Translations under genes and position numbers: made by a program
Source of the DNA: a virus
Direction: 5' to 3' (one strand)
IMG/VR virus record: IMGVR_UViG_3300027844_001155
Span: 1-43,157 of that record
Length of the DNA: 43,157 nt
The notes under the pieces: generated by a model
Seen by the model: only the letters and a program-made list of their open reading frames with translations
Told to the model about the DNA's origin: nothing
Database searches by the model: none
In this document: piece after piece, positions 16,401 to 38,369 of the stretch
Numbering within the stretch: position 1 is the stretch's first letter
Layout of the letters: each line of letters starts with the position of its first letter

Positions 16401-18417
16401 GGATCAACAACAGGTGATTTACGACGATGTCCAGGCAGAGATTGAAGCACTGCGTGCGTCGGGCGAGACCGAGGACCAACAGAAAGCTTTTGGGATGCTG
16501 TCACAGCTTGAGAAGATCGCGATGGATCTAAGCTTGTATGATCCCGTGGCGTTTCCTGATGCGTGGCGGAAAGCCCCCAAGTACCTGGCGGTTAGAGACG
16601 CGGTTGTTTCCCGAATGCCAGAGACCAAGAAAGAAGCAAAGACAAAGATCAAAGAGCTGGAAAAGCAGCTTAAAGCCGCCCCCGAAGAAGAGCGCAAGGC
16701 TCTGCAAAAGAAACTGGATTATTATACATTGATCGCAGAGCGCGGTGGCGGGCACATTATCTTTTGTGATTATCACAGCGGGGGCTCTCAAGACCGAATC
16801 AAGCAACTCCTGGTGGAGGCGGGGATTCCCGCAGACGAAATTGCAATCGTTAACTCGAAGACCGCGGGCGCGTCGAAGCGGCAGGAGATCAGTAAGGATT
16901 TTAACGCGGGAAAAATCCGCGTCGTAATTGGGTCTAGTGTCATTGGCGAGGGCATAAATTTACAAAAAACGTGTACGGACATTCACCACGTCACGATCCC
17001 TTGGAACAATGCAATTGTTCATCAGCGTAATGGGCGCGGTGTCCGCCAGGGGAACCCCGCCGATACGGTGCAACTGCACGAATACGTGGCGCGGGGCACT
17101 TATGACGCCTACAAGGCCGCAACGGTCATGGGTAAAAAGGGCTGGCAGGACAAATTGCAAGGTGGCAGCGAGCGCATTGACATTGACTCTGAGAGCACGA
17201 CACGTATGGAAGTCCTGATCGAGATCAGCAAGGATCCCGAAGCGGCCAGGGCCGAGTACGAAACGCAAATGATTGAAATGCGCGAGGCGTTCACGGCCAA
17301 AAAAGAAGCCGACGCCATTAAAACGCTCTCGGAGCTGCGCCGAATGCGTTGGCTATATGAAAACTCTTCTCCGAGCGAAATGAATGATCGGCGGCAGGCT
17401 AAAATCACGCAATTACGAAACCGTGCGCGAGGGAATCAGTTTCTACCCGCGCACTTGAAGGCGGCAATCGACGAGGATCGGGCGGGGTTTATTTCCGCAA
17501 AAGGCCAGGCATTTTTCGAGGGGCAGCTTATTCGCCGCGCTGGCCGTGAATACATCGTGGACGCTATTGACTATCGGAAAAAGCGGATCGTTATCAAGTC
17601 TGAGGACAACGTATCTCCGCCCGTGTTGAAGCAGAGAGCCAGCGAGCGCGAGAGCGAAATCCGCTCAGAGCTGTGGGGCACGGGTAAATATCAAAGCGAC
17701 GGGCTTTATGGACAAGCTCGCGTGCTCGTGGATGAAAATAAAAAAGACACGCCCGAGTACAAGGCGCTCAAAGATCGCGTAGGCGCTCTTGAAGCCGAGT
17801 TGAAGAAATGGGAGAAAGAGCAAAAAGGAAAGCGCGGGGCGACTCCCGATCAGCCGTCGTTCGTGGAGTTGAACGCGGGAGGCGTATCGACACGCCCAGG
17901 GAATGAGGCCGATATTGTCACTAAGCAACTGGAGTCGGTCTACCAGGTCTCGTCTATGACTACTCGGTTTTCTTCGCGACAATTCGAGCGCCACGCGGAC
18001 ACAATGCAAGGGAAGTTGCAATCGCTGGTAGATAAGGGTGGCGGCTCCCAATATGACCGCGCCCCCGGCCTGATCGTTACCGCCGAGGGGGATATTGCCC
18101 GATACTTGGACGCTGAGTTGCCCCAGGGGGCGACCTGGTGGACGCCAACAGAGGCGGGTTTAGGCGCTTTGGCTCAGGCGATTGCGTCGGATTATGTTGA
18201 AGCGGGCTATCATCAACCGCTCAAGTCATACGACTGGTCGTGGGTTGCGCAGGACATGTCCGAATCAGGGCACCGCCTATCCGAGCTGTCGAAGACCTGG
18301 GCAAAATACAACCAGACTCCTGTGTGGGTCGCTTTTAACAAAAAGCTCAACCGTGAGATCCGGCACTTGCTTAAAGCAAAGGACGTGGCCCAAGAGATTG
18401 AGACGGAGGCTGCATGA
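10432..18417 (+). CDS. giant DarB-like methyltransferase-helicase polyvalent protein (2661 aa)
   Basis: In order: a short helix and tag 6 (residues about 17-40), Pro-Glu linkers, and a ComM/Mg-chelatase-like piece (KPFRAPHYSTSAAAI, GGILHLEQLEQFS, about 390-450). Next comes an N6-adenine methyltransferase with a SAM loop VLEPACGAGVF (about 936-946) and motif IV TNAPF near 1004, in place of the usual NPPF/Y. Then comes an SNF2-type helicase: Walker A LDVGLGKT (about 1626-1633), motif II DEAH (about 1811), TATPTQNS (about 1888), and the C-terminal half ending RNGRGVRQGN (about 2198). A long helical tail follows. P1 DarB is the named relative by layout: an injected anti-restriction protein that shields phage DNA from type I systems. 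I infer the same broad role. It is coupled to its neighbours on both sides. Confidence 0.92.
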   Translation: MMDYEAVMLKATRGQAYRGKGKRLQTADGYRYIYEKPKRGRASKLGILLQGLTQLWQPGQSKTKDTGARARGLLSADFWHGIVKATDLDALRYLRDFLTAHQTKGERKESQKPAASPKSKDPRVDTPPAPWESMAHVLRHLNRRIASLEADQVVEQQGLFAEPEPIAEPEPPEPPIAGTGRVGMTVEQLIADQDRRAAEKEQKTAEMQKLISEGTVEFSDGAGHHASITPEPAEPGRWRTTRYDDQGISGHTVFDAPELAIARLIEDGQTTPAPGTLDQFGALQPEPIAAPEPIAEPEPIAEPEPIAEPEQQITVGASVWVKDGNGISPAKVIKVRPHPRWGVSYDLEVLTGPSRGQLFGRSAERLSARETHTAHHQSTSISEAKELSEGKPFRAPHYSTSAAAIKGEVSFAQGGILHLEQLEQFSEKAISAVVRALIEAPDVTVTWNTGQVLQDLNRERLAQHLQALGLEPEEPEPIAAPERPSLAEQMATVGAPGVQSSLPHPDFPLGQAEWDLLVALREATSFDERDRLVEANEDAAWKLRENTLLSIMANVVNDERADQFFEPPAPAAEPAPVIYGAYHRPVASSTVPRGYSGIGAHPDFAHGTVTYPQALDPEEAKRMSLREIPSPERKEEVIQEALADMMEDRDDNLELFDDDPTYFERMVGYAIDDNNVHMDRKELAAEVAKRLREAVLSEPEDNFETMPEPEPEVSRPRFMDAEGRVEPAVLYSMLYEAMKVDPQVRLTAQANDEENFIHGAARVISGKATDLLVEALDQDVPENIREQNTEVLNRFIEIYSSESGKYGEQNREVLEKLYADLRPPEPAPQVIRGEAEGERREREALRPTEPAPPRIDLASHMGKKMTKGEREKANARAQELVQSGRDLTDAEKQEVAEFSGDGGIGSSLNQYFTRPDIASAMWSMMQAHGLPENAKVLEPACGAGVFLETAPEGMQLTGVEIDQGVADVASALHGDQHEILSESLEAHALVREGLVPEYQGVITNAPFLARTGGTQLLHKPEIAVADEYFVDTSLDMVEDGGLVAMIVHGRVMHGPKAAFRKKLLAKAELVDAFRLPEEAFAHAHTAPISDVLIFRKRDSAVAAALKTGGEDMLRAVDAWDQDFIDGNWFDAHPERVLGTKLSKEETGWRAKITGDADTLAARMLELTEEGATPGEAGTPVTWAQLQALAESSDVFETAINHANSLEAKTPPVDGEVKVINGKQHILVRGRWTPVDQVDVVALIDSSDEALTRAIESSRLVASLRDAVLAGDFFKARALRLEASQAVKSWFLDYGHPLEHKTLELLAKKDPAVNLLITAIDTEGGLSDLLSKDPQIAEQANIDRTDLLEVAQYLAEIDKHGILDIQRVLDLFEGEASRAEAHVKILASGKFAVEADGQIRHFEDYGSGLIYEKFDAVERQLAGEQPTVAEKDQLEKQKQFLAERIAQMRRSIDNAELSLLHKWIPTEIIAEWWTESRGVPPGYSHIDITQENGVYHAAYVAPDGSREPLIYAREREETDDPKKRYVYKGPNIDVIMRHWNPQGMQITDRHAQEFAAFEQDFKEWCLTSNHAEGLDEMYNRTFFGDVPRAVGSAPLQLEGMREGITPHHFQNEAARFFLDRGKGIMALDVGLGKTFAAMMLARRLKQTGKTRRPTVVCPKSVLVNWAEELEFLFPGSKVLVVGASPKRDRKGNVVMKDGKIVYRDDTNNRETTARKLTDMMQNDYDLVIMTREIFQGISVKEDTLRDFTEGDYSFRRARDLAEARGRKTKESQEKAEEQIKANYDSQIASGFKGTGGLPIFFEDLGIDAIIPDEAHAYKNLYGLPRIRGKKKPKHMGGGMQSQRARDMHLKARLVLERRKAGESKEDHQARVAAMRARTGGERGDGVYFLTATPTQNSPIEVYNMLDILAPEELEARSIHDVEDFVTKYCEIEDRLGLDVGGNVVEQSEVVGFKNLPEIQGLLAKYQIYRTAKDVGLSIPDAPHTRHVLDMTDQQQVIYDDVQAEIEALRASGETEDQQKAFGMLSQLEKIAMDLSLYDPVAFPDAWRKAPKYLAVRDAVVSRMPETKKEAKTKIKELEKQLKAAPEEERKALQKKLDYYTLIAERGGGHIIFCDYHSGGSQDRIKQLLVEAGIPADEIAIVNSKTAGASKRQEISKDFNAGKIRVVIGSSVIGEGINLQKTCTDIHHVTIPWNNAIVHQRNGRGVRQGNPADTVQLHEYVARGTYDAYKAATVMGKKGWQDKLQGGSERIDIDSESTTRMEVLIEISKDPEAARAEYETQMIEMREAFTAKKEADAIKTLSELRRMRWLYENSSPSEMNDRRQAKITQLRNRARGNQFLPAHLKAAIDEDRAGFISAKGQAFFEGQLIRRAGREYIVDAIDYRKKRIVIKSEDNVSPPVLKQRASERESEIRSELWGTGKYQSDGLYGQARVLVDENKKDTPEYKALKDRVGALEAELKKWEKEQKGKRGATPDQPSFVELNAGGVSTRPGNEADIVTKQLESVYQVSSMTTRFSSRQFERHADTMQGKLQSLVDKGGGSQYDRAPGLIVTAEGDIARYLDAELPQGATWWTPTEAGLGALAQAIASDYVEAGYHQPLKSYDWSWVAQDMSESGHRLSELSKTWAKYNQTPVWVAFNKKLNREIRHLLKAKDVAQEIETEAA
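10480..10551 (+). other. tag 6 (GKGKR type)
   Basis: Encodes Y-R-GKGKRLQTADGY-R-YIYEKPKRG after MDYEAVMLKATRGQA, at the N-terminus of the giant protein. It blends the GKGKR start with the YIY strand seen in the HKYIRR subtype. Confidence 0.82.
11284..11363 (+). repeat. Pro-Glu tandem repeat (EPEPIA) linker
   Basis: Tandem 18-base units encode EPEPIA about four times. Single or partial copies also occur near 10915-10960 and 11850-11880 in the same gene. The product is a stiff, acidic linker that separates the N-terminal tag, the ComM-like piece and the following helical regions. Confidence 0.85.
15897..15922 (+). repeat. 26-bp repeat with 6-bp hairpin, copy 1
   Basis: Inside the helicase part of the giant gene. 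It contains GCCTCG-AATC-CGAGGC, a perfect 6-bp stem with a 4-base loop, followed by AAGAAGAAGC. The whole 26 bases recur at 21784-21809 in another polyvalent gene, in the same reading frame (PRIRGKKK). Confidence 0.85.
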
Positions 18418-18728
18418 ACGAGGCGCTCGCAACGAATATCCTATCTATCCTAGCTGTAGATCACCTGTACTATCGTAACTTTGGTTGGTATTGGTGGGGC
18501 ATTAAGCGCGAATTGAAGCGCCTGGGTCACGGTCCATCCGAGCTAAAGCATTTAGGCGACTATTACGACGGGTCCGTAGACGTGTACTATGCAGATCTAG
18601 AGATACCCGATATGATCGACGCGGCGTTGGTGCATCAGGATCAGCATCGGTTCCACAAGCGGAATAACTCGCGCTCGTTTCTACCTGACGGCGAGCCGTA
18701 TATTTTGTTTGACGAAGACGCGGAGTGA
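18414..18728 (+). CDS. unknown protein (104 aa)
   Basis: The ATG at 18414 overlaps the TGA of the giant gene (ATGA), and the gene ends three bases before the portal start. It begins MNEALATNILSILAVDHLYYRN, then a Trp/Tyr-rich stretch (FGWYWWGIKRELKRLGHG). The middle has an acidic strand pair (SVDVYYADLEIPD) and the end is acidic. There is no signal peptide and no known motif. The aromatic, helical N-terminus could pack against another protein. Its place between the anti-restriction-like gene and the portal suggests a small accessory of one of them. Confidence 0.75.
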   Translation: MNEALATNILSILAVDHLYYRNFGWYWWGIKRELKRLGHGPSELKHLGDYYDGSVDVYYADLEIPDMIDAALVHQDQHRFHKRNNSRSFLPDGEPYILFDEDAE

Positions 18729-34425: not shown

Positions 34426-35811
34426 ATGAATTTTCCAGGAATTAACGAGACGGTGCCGGTCCAGGACCTAATGCGCCTCAACGACATGCTGCGTAAGAGC
34501 GGCGATGTCGGGTATCAGACCCCCGCGAGCATCTCGGGCGCGGGCAGTCTGTCCGCCCTGGTGCCGCAGAGCCTTGAGGCCAGCTTGGCGAGCGCCACGT
34601 TCACCATGAACGAGATCGCTCTTTGGAAGAATATACCCAAAGTGAAGGTCGGATCGACGGTCCACGAATACAACGTGATCAAGGAGCATGGTCTCGATTT
34701 ATCGCCATATATGGCAGAGGGCGGAATCCCCGCCATGAACAAAACGGAATATGAGCGTAAATTTTTGAAGGTGAAATATCTTTCCGAAATGCGTCAAATT
34801 ACCGACGTCGCGAGCACAATCAATCCTTTAGTCGGTCCTAACCCTACGGCCCTGGCCGAAGAGACCGAGCGCGGAACCATTCGGCTTATGTCGAAGTTGG
34901 AGCGGGAGCTTTGGCACGGCGATGAAGATGCCAACGCGCTTGGGTTCGACGGTGTCATTAAGCAGATCAGTGCTGAGCCCAAGTCTGTCGTTGACATGCG
35001 CGGTGCGTCTTTGACGGCTGCTCGATTGCAGGAAACTCTTAGTGATGTGTACGCGGCCCCGTTTTACGGAAGCCCCGATTGCATCTATGTCGAGCCCCGC
35101 GTGCATGGTGACCTGATTAACTCCACCGTCCAGTTTGGGCGTCACGATCAGCTCAAGGTGAGTGACGGTTCGAGCTTCACCTTCGGCGCTCAGCAGCTCA
35201 ACATCATGGCCCCGTATGGGTCTGTGCCTGTAAAGGCCGCGCCCTTCTTGTTCAATTCGTGGGATGCCCCCGCGGCTGCGAGCGGACATGGCCTGGCAGC
35301 GGCCACCGTCAAGTCTATCGCCAATCCTGTAGATGCGGCATCTCTCTTTGTCGCCGCCGACGCAGGCGAATACTGGTATAAGATCGTACCGGTCAGTAAT
35401 TCGGCTGGTTATGGCGCTGCGGTTCAAACTGCAAAGGCCACGATTGTCGCGGGCAAGTCCACCGTGATCACCATGCACGCGCACGCTACTGCCGACTTCT
35501 TCCGAGTGTACCGCTCTCCGGTAGGTAGCCAGGCCGGTAAGCATCAATTCATTGGTCAAATGAGCAACTCAAACCCTGGGACCTCCGAGGATGTCTTTAC
35601 GGACATCAACGCCGTGATCCCTGGTACGTCGAGCGTTGTCATGATCAAGCATGATCCGAATTATCTACAGGTCGTCCGCTTACTTGACTACCTTCGTCGC
35701 CCATTAGCAGAGGTCCAAACCACGCGGCCCTTTCTTCTCATGATGTTTTTAAGCTGCGTCGTCAAAATTCCGTCGAAGATGCGTGTCTTAAAAAATGTTG
35801 GCATCGCGTAA
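34426..35811 (+). CDS. major capsid protein with inserted Ig/FnIII-like domain (461 aa)
   Basis: AAGGAG at 34412-34417 precedes ATG 34426. Position after protease and scaffold, an N-terminal arm, and segments such as EYNVIKEHGLDLSPYMAEGG, ETERGTIRLMSKLERELWHG and SPDCIYVEPRVHGDLIN match HK97-fold capsid proteins of the SU10/DUF5309 type. The N-arm (residues about 37-49, SGAGSLSALVPQS) is shared with the prohead protease. Residues about 285-400 look like an inserted Ig/FnIII-like surface domain (YWYKIVPVSNSAGYGAAV, DFFRVYRSPVGS, VFTDINAVIPGTSSV), after which the capsid fold resumes and ends KMRVLKNVGIA. It forms the icosahedral shell; the insert probably faces outward. Confidence 0.9.
   Translation: MNFPGINETVPVQDLMRLNDMLRKSGDVGYQTPASISGAGSLSALVPQSLEASLASATFTMNEIALWKNIPKVKVGSTVHEYNVIKEHGLDLSPYMAEGGIPAMNKTEYERKFLKVKYLSEMRQITDVASTINPLVGPNPTALAEETERGTIRLMSKLERELWHGDEDANALGFDGVIKQISAEPKSVVDMRGASLTAARLQETLSDVYAAPFYGSPDCIYVEPRVHGDLINSTVQFGRHDQLKVSDGSSFTFGAQQLNIMAPYGSVPVKAAPFLFNSWDAPAAASGHGLAAATVKSIANPVDAASLFVAADAGEYWYKIVPVSNSAGYGAAVQTAKATIVAGKSTVITMHAHATADFFRVYRSPVGSQAGKHQFIGQMSNSNPGTSEDVFTDINAVIPGTSSVVMIKHDPNYLQVVRLLDYLRRPLAEVQTTRPFLLMMFLSCVVKIPSKMRVLKNVGIA
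34536..34572 (+). repeat. 37-bp repeat shared with protease gene, copy 2
   Basis: Partner of 33494-33530, located in the part of the capsid gene that encodes the N-terminal arm, where prohead proteases usually cut. Confidence 0.92.
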
Positions 35812-35883
35812 TTCGGGAGGATCGCAAGGGGGTTTGCGCGAATGTCGCGTAAGCCCCGATTTTCTCGACCGGAAGGAGCCTGC

Positions 35884-36147
35884 ATGATTGTTCGATGTCG
35901 CGATAGTGCGTACTTTGGGGCTCAGATTAATGTAGGCGGTGTCTCTTACGCCATTGCATCCGATGGGGCATTGTCTCCGACGCCGGAAGGTGCGCAGCTC
36001 CACATCTTTAGGGAGTGGACATCGTTGTACTTGGTGGATGACGCCCACGTAGAGCCCAAGGCAGAGCCCAAGGCAGAGCCCAAGGCAGAGCCCAAGGCAG
36101 AAGCCGCGGCCCCCAAGCGCCGAGGCCGGAAGCCGAAAGAGTCCTGA
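35884..36147 (+). CDS. small head protein with EPKA repeats and basic tail (87 aa)
   Basis: ATG 35884 has AAGGAG 5-6 bases upstream, so I prefer it to ATG 35842, which would give a 101-residue version. The first 55 residues form a compact beta-like domain (MIVRCRDSAYFGAQINVGG, HIFREWTSLYLVDD). Four EPKA repeats follow, then a basic end (KRRGRKPKES) that resembles an AT-hook and could bind the minor groove of DNA. It lies between the capsid and connector genes, so a small head or head-completion protein is likely. The function is not proven. Confidence 0.72.
   Translation: MIVRCRDSAYFGAQINVGGVSYAIASDGALSPTPEGAQLHIFREWTSLYLVDDAHVEPKAEPKAEPKAEPKAEAAAPKRRGRKPKES
36052..36099 (+). repeat. 12-bp x4 tandem repeat (EPKA)
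   Basis: Four perfect copies of GAGCCCAAGGCA, encoding a flexible charged linker before the basic tail of the 87-residue protein. Copy number could vary by slippage. Confidence 0.95.
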
Positions 36148-36162: not shown

Positions 36163-37548
36163 GTGGCCAGTATTCTCGACGAGTTGACCCCTGCCTGGCT
36201 CAAGGATCGTTTCCTTGTGGGCGTCGACCTTACGCTTGACGACGGCACCGCGTATCCTGACGCTATATATTCACAAGCTATCTCTGCCAGCGTTGCGTTC
36301 TTAGAGCATGATATTGGGATCACGATTGACCCCTTCGAGGTAACGGGCGAGCAGCACGACGCCTACGAGGCTAACCGCTCTGGCTTTTGGCCGTTTCGCC
36401 TGGACCATCGCCCTGTGCTCAAGATGGATAAGATGCAAGTCCGCTTTGGTGGCTTTGCGCCCGCAGAGCTGCCTGTGACGTGGGCGCAGCTCGTTAGCCC
36501 CGTGCATGGTCAAATCCACCTAATCCCGTCCGAAGAGTCGCTGCACTCAAGTTATCGGTTTACGCATGGGATCCCTTTGATCACAGGTGACGTACTCCAG
36601 CCGCAACGCTATGTCCCAGGGTATTTTCACTTCGATTATACAGCGGGGTTCGAGACTCGGGCGGTGACTGTGACTGTCCCTAACGGGGAGACCACGGGCA
36701 CTACAACATTGTCCCCTGTGATTTCTCTGCGGTATGAGCCTGTGATCTCTACGAACCCGCTTGCGGGGAATGGGATCACGGCAAAGGTGAAAACCAGAGG
36801 GTCCAAGTCGATTACGCTCGAATTGAGCGCCGCAGCGCCCGCAGAAACAGATTTTGAGGTCGTGATTTCGACTCTACCCGCTGACATCAAGCAGGCCATC
36901 GGCTACAAGGCGGCACTTTTGCCTTTAGACGTGGCAGGCGATCTCATTGCAGGCGCGGGCATTGCAAATCTACATGTGGGAGTGGACGGTCTCTCACAAT
37001 CTCTCGGAACAACCTGTTTGCATAAGAACACGCGCATTGCGTTGACTGATGGCACGCGCCCCACGATCAAAAGCCTCGTCGATGTGTCTGAATTCGCGGT
37101 GGCGTGTGTCGATGACACTGGCCATCCTCGCGTTGGCATTGGCCATTCGGCACGAAAGACCATCAAGGATGACGTGCTCCAGGTGAATCTATCGACTGGA
37201 GAGCACGTACTTTGCAACGCGAGCCATCCTTTTAGGACGTATGGCGGGGAGTACATTCCGGCGGGTGAGCTGCGACCTGGAATACCCCTGACCCCCTGTT
37301 CCCTGGTCACCGATGAGCCGTTTATCACGGTGGTCAGTGTGAATGAGACTGGCCGCAGGGAGTGGCTATACGACATTACGGTGGACGAGCATCATTGTTT
37401 CGGACTCGAAGCGGGCGTGATTGTACACAATTCTAGCGCCACAAATGCGGGCTACGGTGCCCGTGTTTTGCAGTTTGAGCGTGAGCTAAAATCCCTACTG
37501 CCCGCGCTCCGCGCCAAATATAAAGCTATCAACATGGGCGCAATCTAA
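36163..37548 (+). CDS. head-tail connector (adaptor) protein interrupted by an intein (461 aa precursor)
   Basis: GTG 36163 has GAGGGAG 4-10 bases upstream. The extein has an acidic N-terminal helix region, a central beta domain (VTVTVPNGETTGTTTLSP, then AKVKTRGSKSITLELS) and a C-terminal helical part (LPADIKQAIGYKAALLPLD, then NLHVGVDGLSQSLGTT, joined after splicing to SSATNAGYGARVLQFERELK). The SQS..TT-SSATN..YGAR block is one I recognise in phage neck or adaptor proteins, where it is continuous. The intein occupies residues 285-423, and removal gives a 322-residue protein. It lies just after the capsid genes, the right place for a protein that joins portal and tail. The gene is coupled to the next (TAATG). 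Confidence 0.85.
   Translation: MASILDELTPAWLKDRFLVGVDLTLDDGTAYPDAIYSQAISASVAFLEHDIGITIDPFEVTGEQHDAYEANRSGFWPFRLDHRPVLKMDKMQVRFGGFAPAELPVTWAQLVSPVHGQIHLIPSEESLHSSYRFTHGIPLITGDVLQPQRYVPGYFHFDYTAGFETRAVTVTVPNGETTGTTTLSPVISLRYEPVISTNPLAGNGITAKVKTRGSKSITLELSAAAPAETDFEVVISTLPADIKQAIGYKAALLPLDVAGDLIAGAGIANLHVGVDGLSQSLGTTCLHKNTRIALTDGTRPTIKSLVDVSEFAVACVDDTGHPRVGIGHSARKTIKDDVLQVNLSTGEHVLCNASHPFRTYGGEYIPAGELRPGIPLTPCSLVTDEPFITVVSVNETGRREWLYDITVDEHHCFGLEAGVIVHNSSATNAGYGARVLQFERELKSLLPALRAKYKAINMGAI
37015..37431 (+). mobile_element. mini-intein (139 aa) in the connector protein
   Basis: The insert starts with Cys285 (CLHKNTRIALTDG, block A), has a block B-like GEHVLCNASHPF with the conserved His, a block F WLYDITVDEHHCFGL, and ends GVIVHN with the penultimate His and final Asn423, followed by Ser424 as the +1 nucleophile. 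All residues expected for splicing are present. The usual TxxH of block B is NxxH here. At 139 residues there is no room for a homing endonuclease, so it is a minimal intein that cannot spread by itself. Splicing should happen soon after translation and restores the adaptor. Confidence 0.92.
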
Positions 37549-38369
37549 TGCAGCTCCCTTCCCGCGTACCGACCAAGCTAGGGCCGCGTGTCGATTTTCG
37601 CCCCGAAGAATTCCGCAAATTCCTATACAAAGCAGGGCTTGATCTGACCTGGGAGCAGGCGCAGGAATGCCCTTGCAGAAGGCGCAGCGACGAGATTACT
37701 TTAGATGGCAGTTTCGCGGTTCCGCAAGCTTCGCGCACGGCAGAGGCACGCTTAGATTGTTCAATGTGCAAAGGCAAGGGATACTTCTATCATTCGTCGC
37801 AACGTGTGAAAGCGGGCGTTACAAGCGCCACGGAGAATCCCGAGCGGTTCCGCGCATACGGCGAGTATGCCACAGGCATGGTATCTATCTCGTTGCTCCC
37901 AGAACACTTGCCCGCGTGGGGCGACCGCTTCACGATGATCAACTCCGTTTTATTGTATCGCGAGACTAGAGTGCGGGCCGCAGGGGCGATCACGACCTTG
38001 AAGCTACCCGTGGTGACCCGCTCTCTGGACTTAGTGCAAGGCGCAACCGACATAAACGTACTCCACGCGCACAAAGCAAATGTCGATGGGACAACCGACG
38101 TGGGCCTATCCTTGATCCCTGGTCAAGATTTTGAGGTTACAGCGGCAGGGGAAATAGATTGGGCGCTAGGGGATGCTTCGGGGAACGCTCCCGCCGAGGG
38201 GGTTAGATTTGCAATCTCGTACTACGCCCACCCCCGATTTGTGGTGATTGACCACCCCCATGCGTTTCGGGATACTTTCACCAAGCGCAAGAACCCTGAC
38301 GAGGTCTTCGCCCCCCTGCCTATCATGTGCAATGCTAGGCTCGACTTTCTGGGCCAGGACAACGAGTAA
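37548..38369 (+). CDS. neck/head-completion protein with Cys cluster (273 aa)
   Basis: Begins in a TAATG overlap. The N-terminal part has a four-Cys set (ECPCRRRSDE, then LDCSMCKGKGYFYHS, residues about 41-84), which looks like a zinc-binding site. The rest is beta-rich (VSISLLPEHLPAWGDRFTM, LPVVTRSLDLVQGATDI, VRFAISYYAHPRFVVID) and ends with LDFLGQDNE. I have seen this arrangement in neck proteins of contractile-tailed phages, but I cannot name the family with certainty. It lies between the adaptor and two further short tail-completion genes, which supports a head-tail joining role. Confidence 0.75.
   Translation: MQLPSRVPTKLGPRVDFRPEEFRKFLYKAGLDLTWEQAQECPCRRRSDEITLDGSFAVPQASRTAEARLDCSMCKGKGYFYHSSQRVKAGVTSATENPERFRAYGEYATGMVSISLLPEHLPAWGDRFTMINSVLLYRETRVRAAGAITTLKLPVVTRSLDLVQGATDINVLHAHKANVDGTTDVGLSLIPGQDFEVTAAGEIDWALGDASGNAPAEGVRFAISYYAHPRFVVIDHPHAFRDTFTKRKNPDEVFAPLPIMCNARLDFLGQDNE

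Follow-up and report, generated by a model that had tools for sequence, protein, structure and literature searches.

A predicted class 1 mini-intein in the neck adaptor gene of a metagenomic phage, most likely displaced from the site used by its relatives

The adaptor gene and its neighbors

The window, that is, the whole stretch of 43,157 nucleotides analyzed here, carries on its plus strand an adaptor gene with a GTG start (36163–37548), the precursor of which has 461 residues and is predicted to yield a protein of 322 residues once spliced. The gene comprises an N-extein of 284 residues (36163–37014, plus strand), a probable mini-intein of 139 residues without endonuclease domain (37015–37431, plus strand), and a C-extein of 38 residues (37432–37545, plus strand), which begins with SSATNAGYGAR and constitutes the last helix of the adaptor. 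The insert of 417 bp is in frame, and its deletion leaves an open reading frame of 322 residues, which matches the product length given in an earlier note on this DNA. The intein DNA of two further metagenome contigs spanning the insert (L001, L002) is identical to that of the window.

The host protein, previously described as a head-tail connector, could be confirmed as such and narrowed to the neck adaptor based on profile, fold and gene order. The gene matched PHROG 772 (4e-34), and a profile built from 37 intein-free homologues matched the adaptor gp96 of Staphylococcus phage 812 (PDB 8q01_b; hmmsearch, E 4e-28). The same chain ranked first when the model of an intein-free homologue (L003, pLDDT 81) was compared with solved structures, both by Foldseek (6e-10) and by VIA-align 2 (Z 15.2, rmsd 3.9, 230 residues aligned). 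Gene order from protease to sheath is that of SPO1 genes 3.2 to 9.1 (protease-scaffold-MCP-6.2-6.3-6.4-..-sheath), and the Herelleviridae-type sequence of MCP, small gene, adaptor, stopper with CPC/CxxC, and sheath is present. The upstream neighbor encodes the major head protein (34426–35811, plus strand; PHROG 752, 1.5e-58), and the neighboring gene at 37548–38369 (plus strand; PHROG 1004, 3.1e-17) encodes the stopper. The latter carries a CPC...CSMC tetracysteine motif at residues 41 and 71 and weakly matches the 812 neck chain 8q01_S (E 0.0077); according to the study of the 812 neck, the CPC...CxxC motif is typical of Herelleviridae stoppers (PMC12886913). Thus, phage 812 gp96 (PDB 8Q01, 8QJE) and SPO1 gp6.3 share family and gene order with the adaptor of the window, from which they differ in having no intein. 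The label "tail fiber protein", given to this adaptor family in phrog_772 and in many GenBank records, is misleading, since profile, fold and gene order all designate a neck adaptor.

Two other features of the region may be mentioned. Between the major head protein and the adaptor lies a small gene (35842–36147) with an AEPK repeat and a basic RRGRKPKES tail, in the same place as the small gene 6.2 of SPO1. Further upstream, between an open reading frame of 2661 residues and the portal gene, positions 18414–18728 gave a match to an Ulx-like anti-restriction family (phrog_1629).

Nature of the insert and its place in the DNA channel

The coordinates and splicing residues listed in the earlier note (Cys1, block B His, penultimate His, Asn, and +1 Ser) were all correct. 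On the plus strand, the N-terminal nucleophile Cys1 is encoded by TGT at 37015–37017 (residue 285 of the open reading frame), block B by 37216–37227 (N68-A-S-H71), block F by 37369–37383 (Y119-DITV), and block G, with the penultimate His and the terminal Asn (AAT, 37429–37431), by 37423–37431 (V137-H-N139). The +1 Ser of the C-extein follows immediately (TCT, 37432–37434), and we refer to this junction as site a. The insert matched the Pfam profile Intein_splicing (PF14890; 9.8e-11, 42.1 bits, for a cut-off of 35.8). With the NCBIfam models, its score was above the cut-off for the C-terminal model TIGR01443 (17.2 vs. 15.6) and below it for the N-terminal model TIGR01445 (21.0 vs. 24.5). Sequence matches to mini-inteins of solved structure were also obtained, one of which, to the Mtu RecA mini-intein, spans all of its 139 residues (E 1.5e-4). 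AlphaFold models of the intein, calculated for three sequences, reached a pLDDT of only 39. No endonuclease family, HNH or LAGLIDADG, was found in the 139 residues by the Pfam and NCBIfam scans.

The insert displays several features of class 1 inteins, namely Cys1 at 37015, the VHN|S junction, and an in-frame insertion which is absent from most homologues. A class 3 intein, which has no nucleophile at position 1 and carries a WCT triplet, was rejected because Cys1 is present and because block F has Asp (YDITV) where class 3 inteins have Cys. Block B departs from the usual TxxH: His71 is kept and Asn replaces Thr, which might make the first splicing step slower. Related inteins present NASH, SEDH and TYNH at this place, the first residue being N, S or T.

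Adaptor homologues were drawn from IMG/VR, with the N-extein as query and then by alignment. The insert is missing from 67 of the 71 distinct homologues considered by their C-termini, and at the insertion point the uninterrupted adaptors read TT[AS]SATN[SA]GYGAR, TTSSAMYSGYSAR or near variants. SPO1 gp6.3 is also uninterrupted (SIGTTQSPEFSGAGSR). Taken together, these sequences place both ends of the insertion at a single codon boundary, and the precise gap seen in intein-free homologues confirms the site. The profile matches, the solved mini-inteins and this gap thus bear out the earlier proposal of a mini-intein, which is probably active, as predicted from its sequence.

Across this region of the profile alignment, phage 812 reads I262 G T T265 Q266 S A M269 Y270 G271 G272, site a corresponding to T265|Q266 and a second site, b, described below, to Y270|G271 (270|271). 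Where the chamber opens at its exit, loops 265–272 of the 812 adaptor ring contact DNA in the channel, Met269 and Tyr270 lying against riboses (PMC12886913). As the alignment places site a within these loops, the intein would sit at the equivalent of the DNA-contacting loop of 812; in the model of the intein-free homologue, the insertion point falls where the last helix (279–308) starts. The Met-Tyr contact positions of 812 are Thr-Asn in the adaptor family of the window, so that the contact with DNA may differ in detail.

Twelve adaptor copies surround the channel, and twelve inteins of about 15 kDa could hardly share it with DNA. An unspliced ring would therefore be blocked or unable to form, and splicing would have to precede completion of the neck. 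The earlier claim that splicing is needed before neck assembly is strengthened by the position of the site in the DNA-contacting loop of 812, and is a reasonable deduction from geometry. Judging from the residues present, Cys1 would attack the Thr284-Cys1 bond, Ser+1 would then receive the N-extein, and cyclization of the terminal Asn would release the adaptor of 322 residues.

Related adaptor inteins, site shift and turnover

Inteins were detected in three other adaptors, L005 (139 residues), L051 (139 residues) and L046/L047 (163 residues). All of them are without endonuclease domain, and all are located at site b (ATN|S), five codons downstream of site a. In a tree including other viral and bacterial inteins, the four adaptor inteins form one clade (support 98/96), the nearest pair being the window and L005 (100/99); the L046 intein is a long branch and its placement in the clade is less sure. 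The latter intein (L046:4871-5359) is 24 residues longer owing to an extra loop past block B with an internal VVHN, and no nuclease motif was seen.

In the pairs formed by the window, L005 and L051, the inteins are almost exactly as similar to each other as their exteins (intein/extein identity 69/65, 56/56, and 56/55%), which at the sequence level suggests long joint inheritance. Between the inteins of the window and L005, differences at codon positions 1, 2 and 3 amount to 0.27, 0.18 and 0.68. For the three inteins, third positions are near saturation (0.64–0.68) and second positions are little changed (0.18–0.32), thus the inteins are under constraint. The preserved frame, the catalytic residues and the saturated third positions indicate that these inteins are presumably selected to splice.

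The +1 residues differ between adaptors. The window has Ser at site a and Ala at site b, a GCG codon (37447–37449, plus strand) standing where its intein-bearing relatives have the +1 Ser of site b. In the adaptor L005 the arrangement is reversed, site a having Ala and site b Ser, while an adaptor with an empty site, L035, has Ser at both. Since site b is occupied in all three other lineages, and since the window is nested with L005 among them, one move from b to a is the simplest history. Most likely, the intein of the window would descend from a site-b intein and have shifted 15 bp upstream in its own lineage, the only one from which this shift is known. The relocation would have ended at a place offering a usable +1 Ser. 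DNA resemblance between the two sites found no support as the cause of the shift, as only about 7 of 15 bases match (ATN-type alleles), a level reached by about 15% of other codon positions.

The alternative, that a related intein from another virus invaded site a independently, seems to us possible but rather unlikely. Sites a and b are indeed different codons, nearby sites are separately occupied elsewhere (TerL1-a and TerL1-b, one residue apart; PMC5050341), and the intein is scattered on the extein tree, with three to four changes. However, the closest intein (69%) resides in the closest intein-bearing adaptor, that of L005, and intein and extein have diverged to matching extents, as shared descent predicts. 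Descent from a site-b intein followed by a shift thus remains our preferred reading.

At least three changes are needed to explain the scattered distribution of the intein over the adaptor tree. A full and an empty site could be compared directly in L051 (occupied) and L035 (empty), the nucleotide sequences of which are 89.9% identical in the 3.9 kb before the insert and 90.0% identical in the 4.1 kb after it; the insert is clean, the intein alone differing in between. Such a clean pair indicates that presence and absence are still turning over. Identity in the first 50 bp beside the insert is 0.82 upstream and 1.0 downstream. The flanks are thus not uniformly more similar near the insert, which gives no clear conversion tract, and the difference between the two viruses is compatible with gain and loss alike. 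We hypothesize that the adaptor-intein clade is kept by occasional gain and loss among related viruses together with selection to splice, without known benefit. Tentatively, and at somewhat less than even chance, this nuclease-free lineage restricted to adaptors would stay mobile and would have relocated by 15 bp across the channel loop, from edge to edge, following the +1 Ser.

Mobility could also be sustained by a homing nuclease acting in trans from elsewhere in the genome. Clean presence and absence between close viruses, the lack of an internal endonuclease, and the existence of related phage inteins with HNH-like regions are consistent with this explanation. Nevertheless, no match to HNH (PF01844), the family searched, was obtained in 12 related records, all of them fragments, and we consider it improbable.

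The earlier note also proposed a timing or redox control. That the intein would act as a switch, conditional on redox state, temperature or timing, and hold the adaptor inactive until late infection is very improbable. The site lies in the DNA-channel loop, and all four adaptor inteins retain Cys31 and Cys67. However, few homologues carry the intein, and a partner virus about 90% identical is among those without it, thus the neck can function in its absence. Also, the Cys before block B is found in bacterial GyrA-type inteins as well and gives no support to redox control, and Cys1 is simply the class 1 nucleophile. Least credible of all is a decayed, non-splicing intein, either in a defective phage or in one working with the unspliced adaptor, as NxxH in block B could suggest, since the frame is intact, the catalytic residues are kept, the intein DNA is identical in two further contigs, codon positions 1 and 2 are strongly constrained, and the neck protein, which is essential, should not function with a folded insert of 139 residues in its channel loop.

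Considered as a whole, the data are, with high probability, best explained by a self-excising class 1 mini-intein in the neck adaptor, belonging to an adaptor-specific clade and most likely moved 15 bp upstream.

Wider relatives and comparison with known inteins

The additional matches of a wider intein scan came mostly from proteins other than adaptors, such as P-loop ATPases and portals. Two candidates were discarded, a short frame (L027) that resembles the CNASHPF motif by chance, and a match in Bacillus phage SP-15, which is not annotated as an adaptor. Distant viral relatives (30–34% identity), often with HNH-like regions, occur in various proteins, some of them portal-like or ribonucleotide reductase-like. 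Portal-like proteins with several inteins per frame were encountered in large environmental phages (L114:5250-11384; L130-L133; L143, L144, L148; L115; L116:6567-10961), about four in L114 and two in L116. A ribonucleotide-reductase-like protein (L112:1296-4940) contains two inteins, of which the first has an HNH-like region. In cells, the nearest inteins found were of GyrA type, in Chromatiaceae and Chloroflexota (L237-L243, L247; 32–35% identity), a label taken from their flanking sequence GQGNFG|C...HN|SVDGD; some have the size of a mini-intein and others are larger with an HNH-like stretch. No step in base composition was seen at the insert of the window. It is likely that the adaptor intein derives from an HNH intein which would have lost its nuclease long ago.

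A structural adaptor had been presented as a less usual place for an intein. This is fair, although inteins are already known in portal proteins of mycobacteriophages (PMC5050341) and several more were found here. The literature searched, in which subscription journals are thinly covered, yielded no earlier report of an intein in a head-tail connector or neck protein, nor of intein relocation. This kind of element is thus known; its adaptor host and its slight displacement relative to the site of related inteins appear to be unreported. The neck adaptor can be added to the known intein hosts, and it is a further case in which an intein occupies the part of a protein most critical to function, here a loop touching translocating DNA. 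Also, the full and empty pair and the two neighboring sites constitute a small natural system for the spread, loss and shift of nuclease-free inteins, which are poorly understood. Splicing domains of 139 residues with natural -1 Thr or Asn and +1 Ser may serve as tools.

Among class 1 mini-inteins, the Mtu RecA mini-intein and the Pho RadA intein resemble that of the window in Cys1, the terminal HN and YD..V in block F, and the former likewise has 139 residues without endonuclease. The window intein differs from both by NxxH in block B, and sequence similarity is only distant. Bacterial GyrA-type inteins differ from it in host protein and in site (GQGNFG|C...HN|S). The TerL and portal inteins of mycobacteriophages are likewise inserted at functional sites of ring-forming packaging and structural proteins, and include the near-adjacent TerL1-a and TerL1-b (PMC5050341). 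These sites being one residue apart, closeness of sites alone is not new; unlike sites a and b, they are not described as occupied by one intein lineage that moved. Two TerL inteins tested in that study have active endonucleases, unlike the mini-intein of the window, and its hosts do not include an adaptor.
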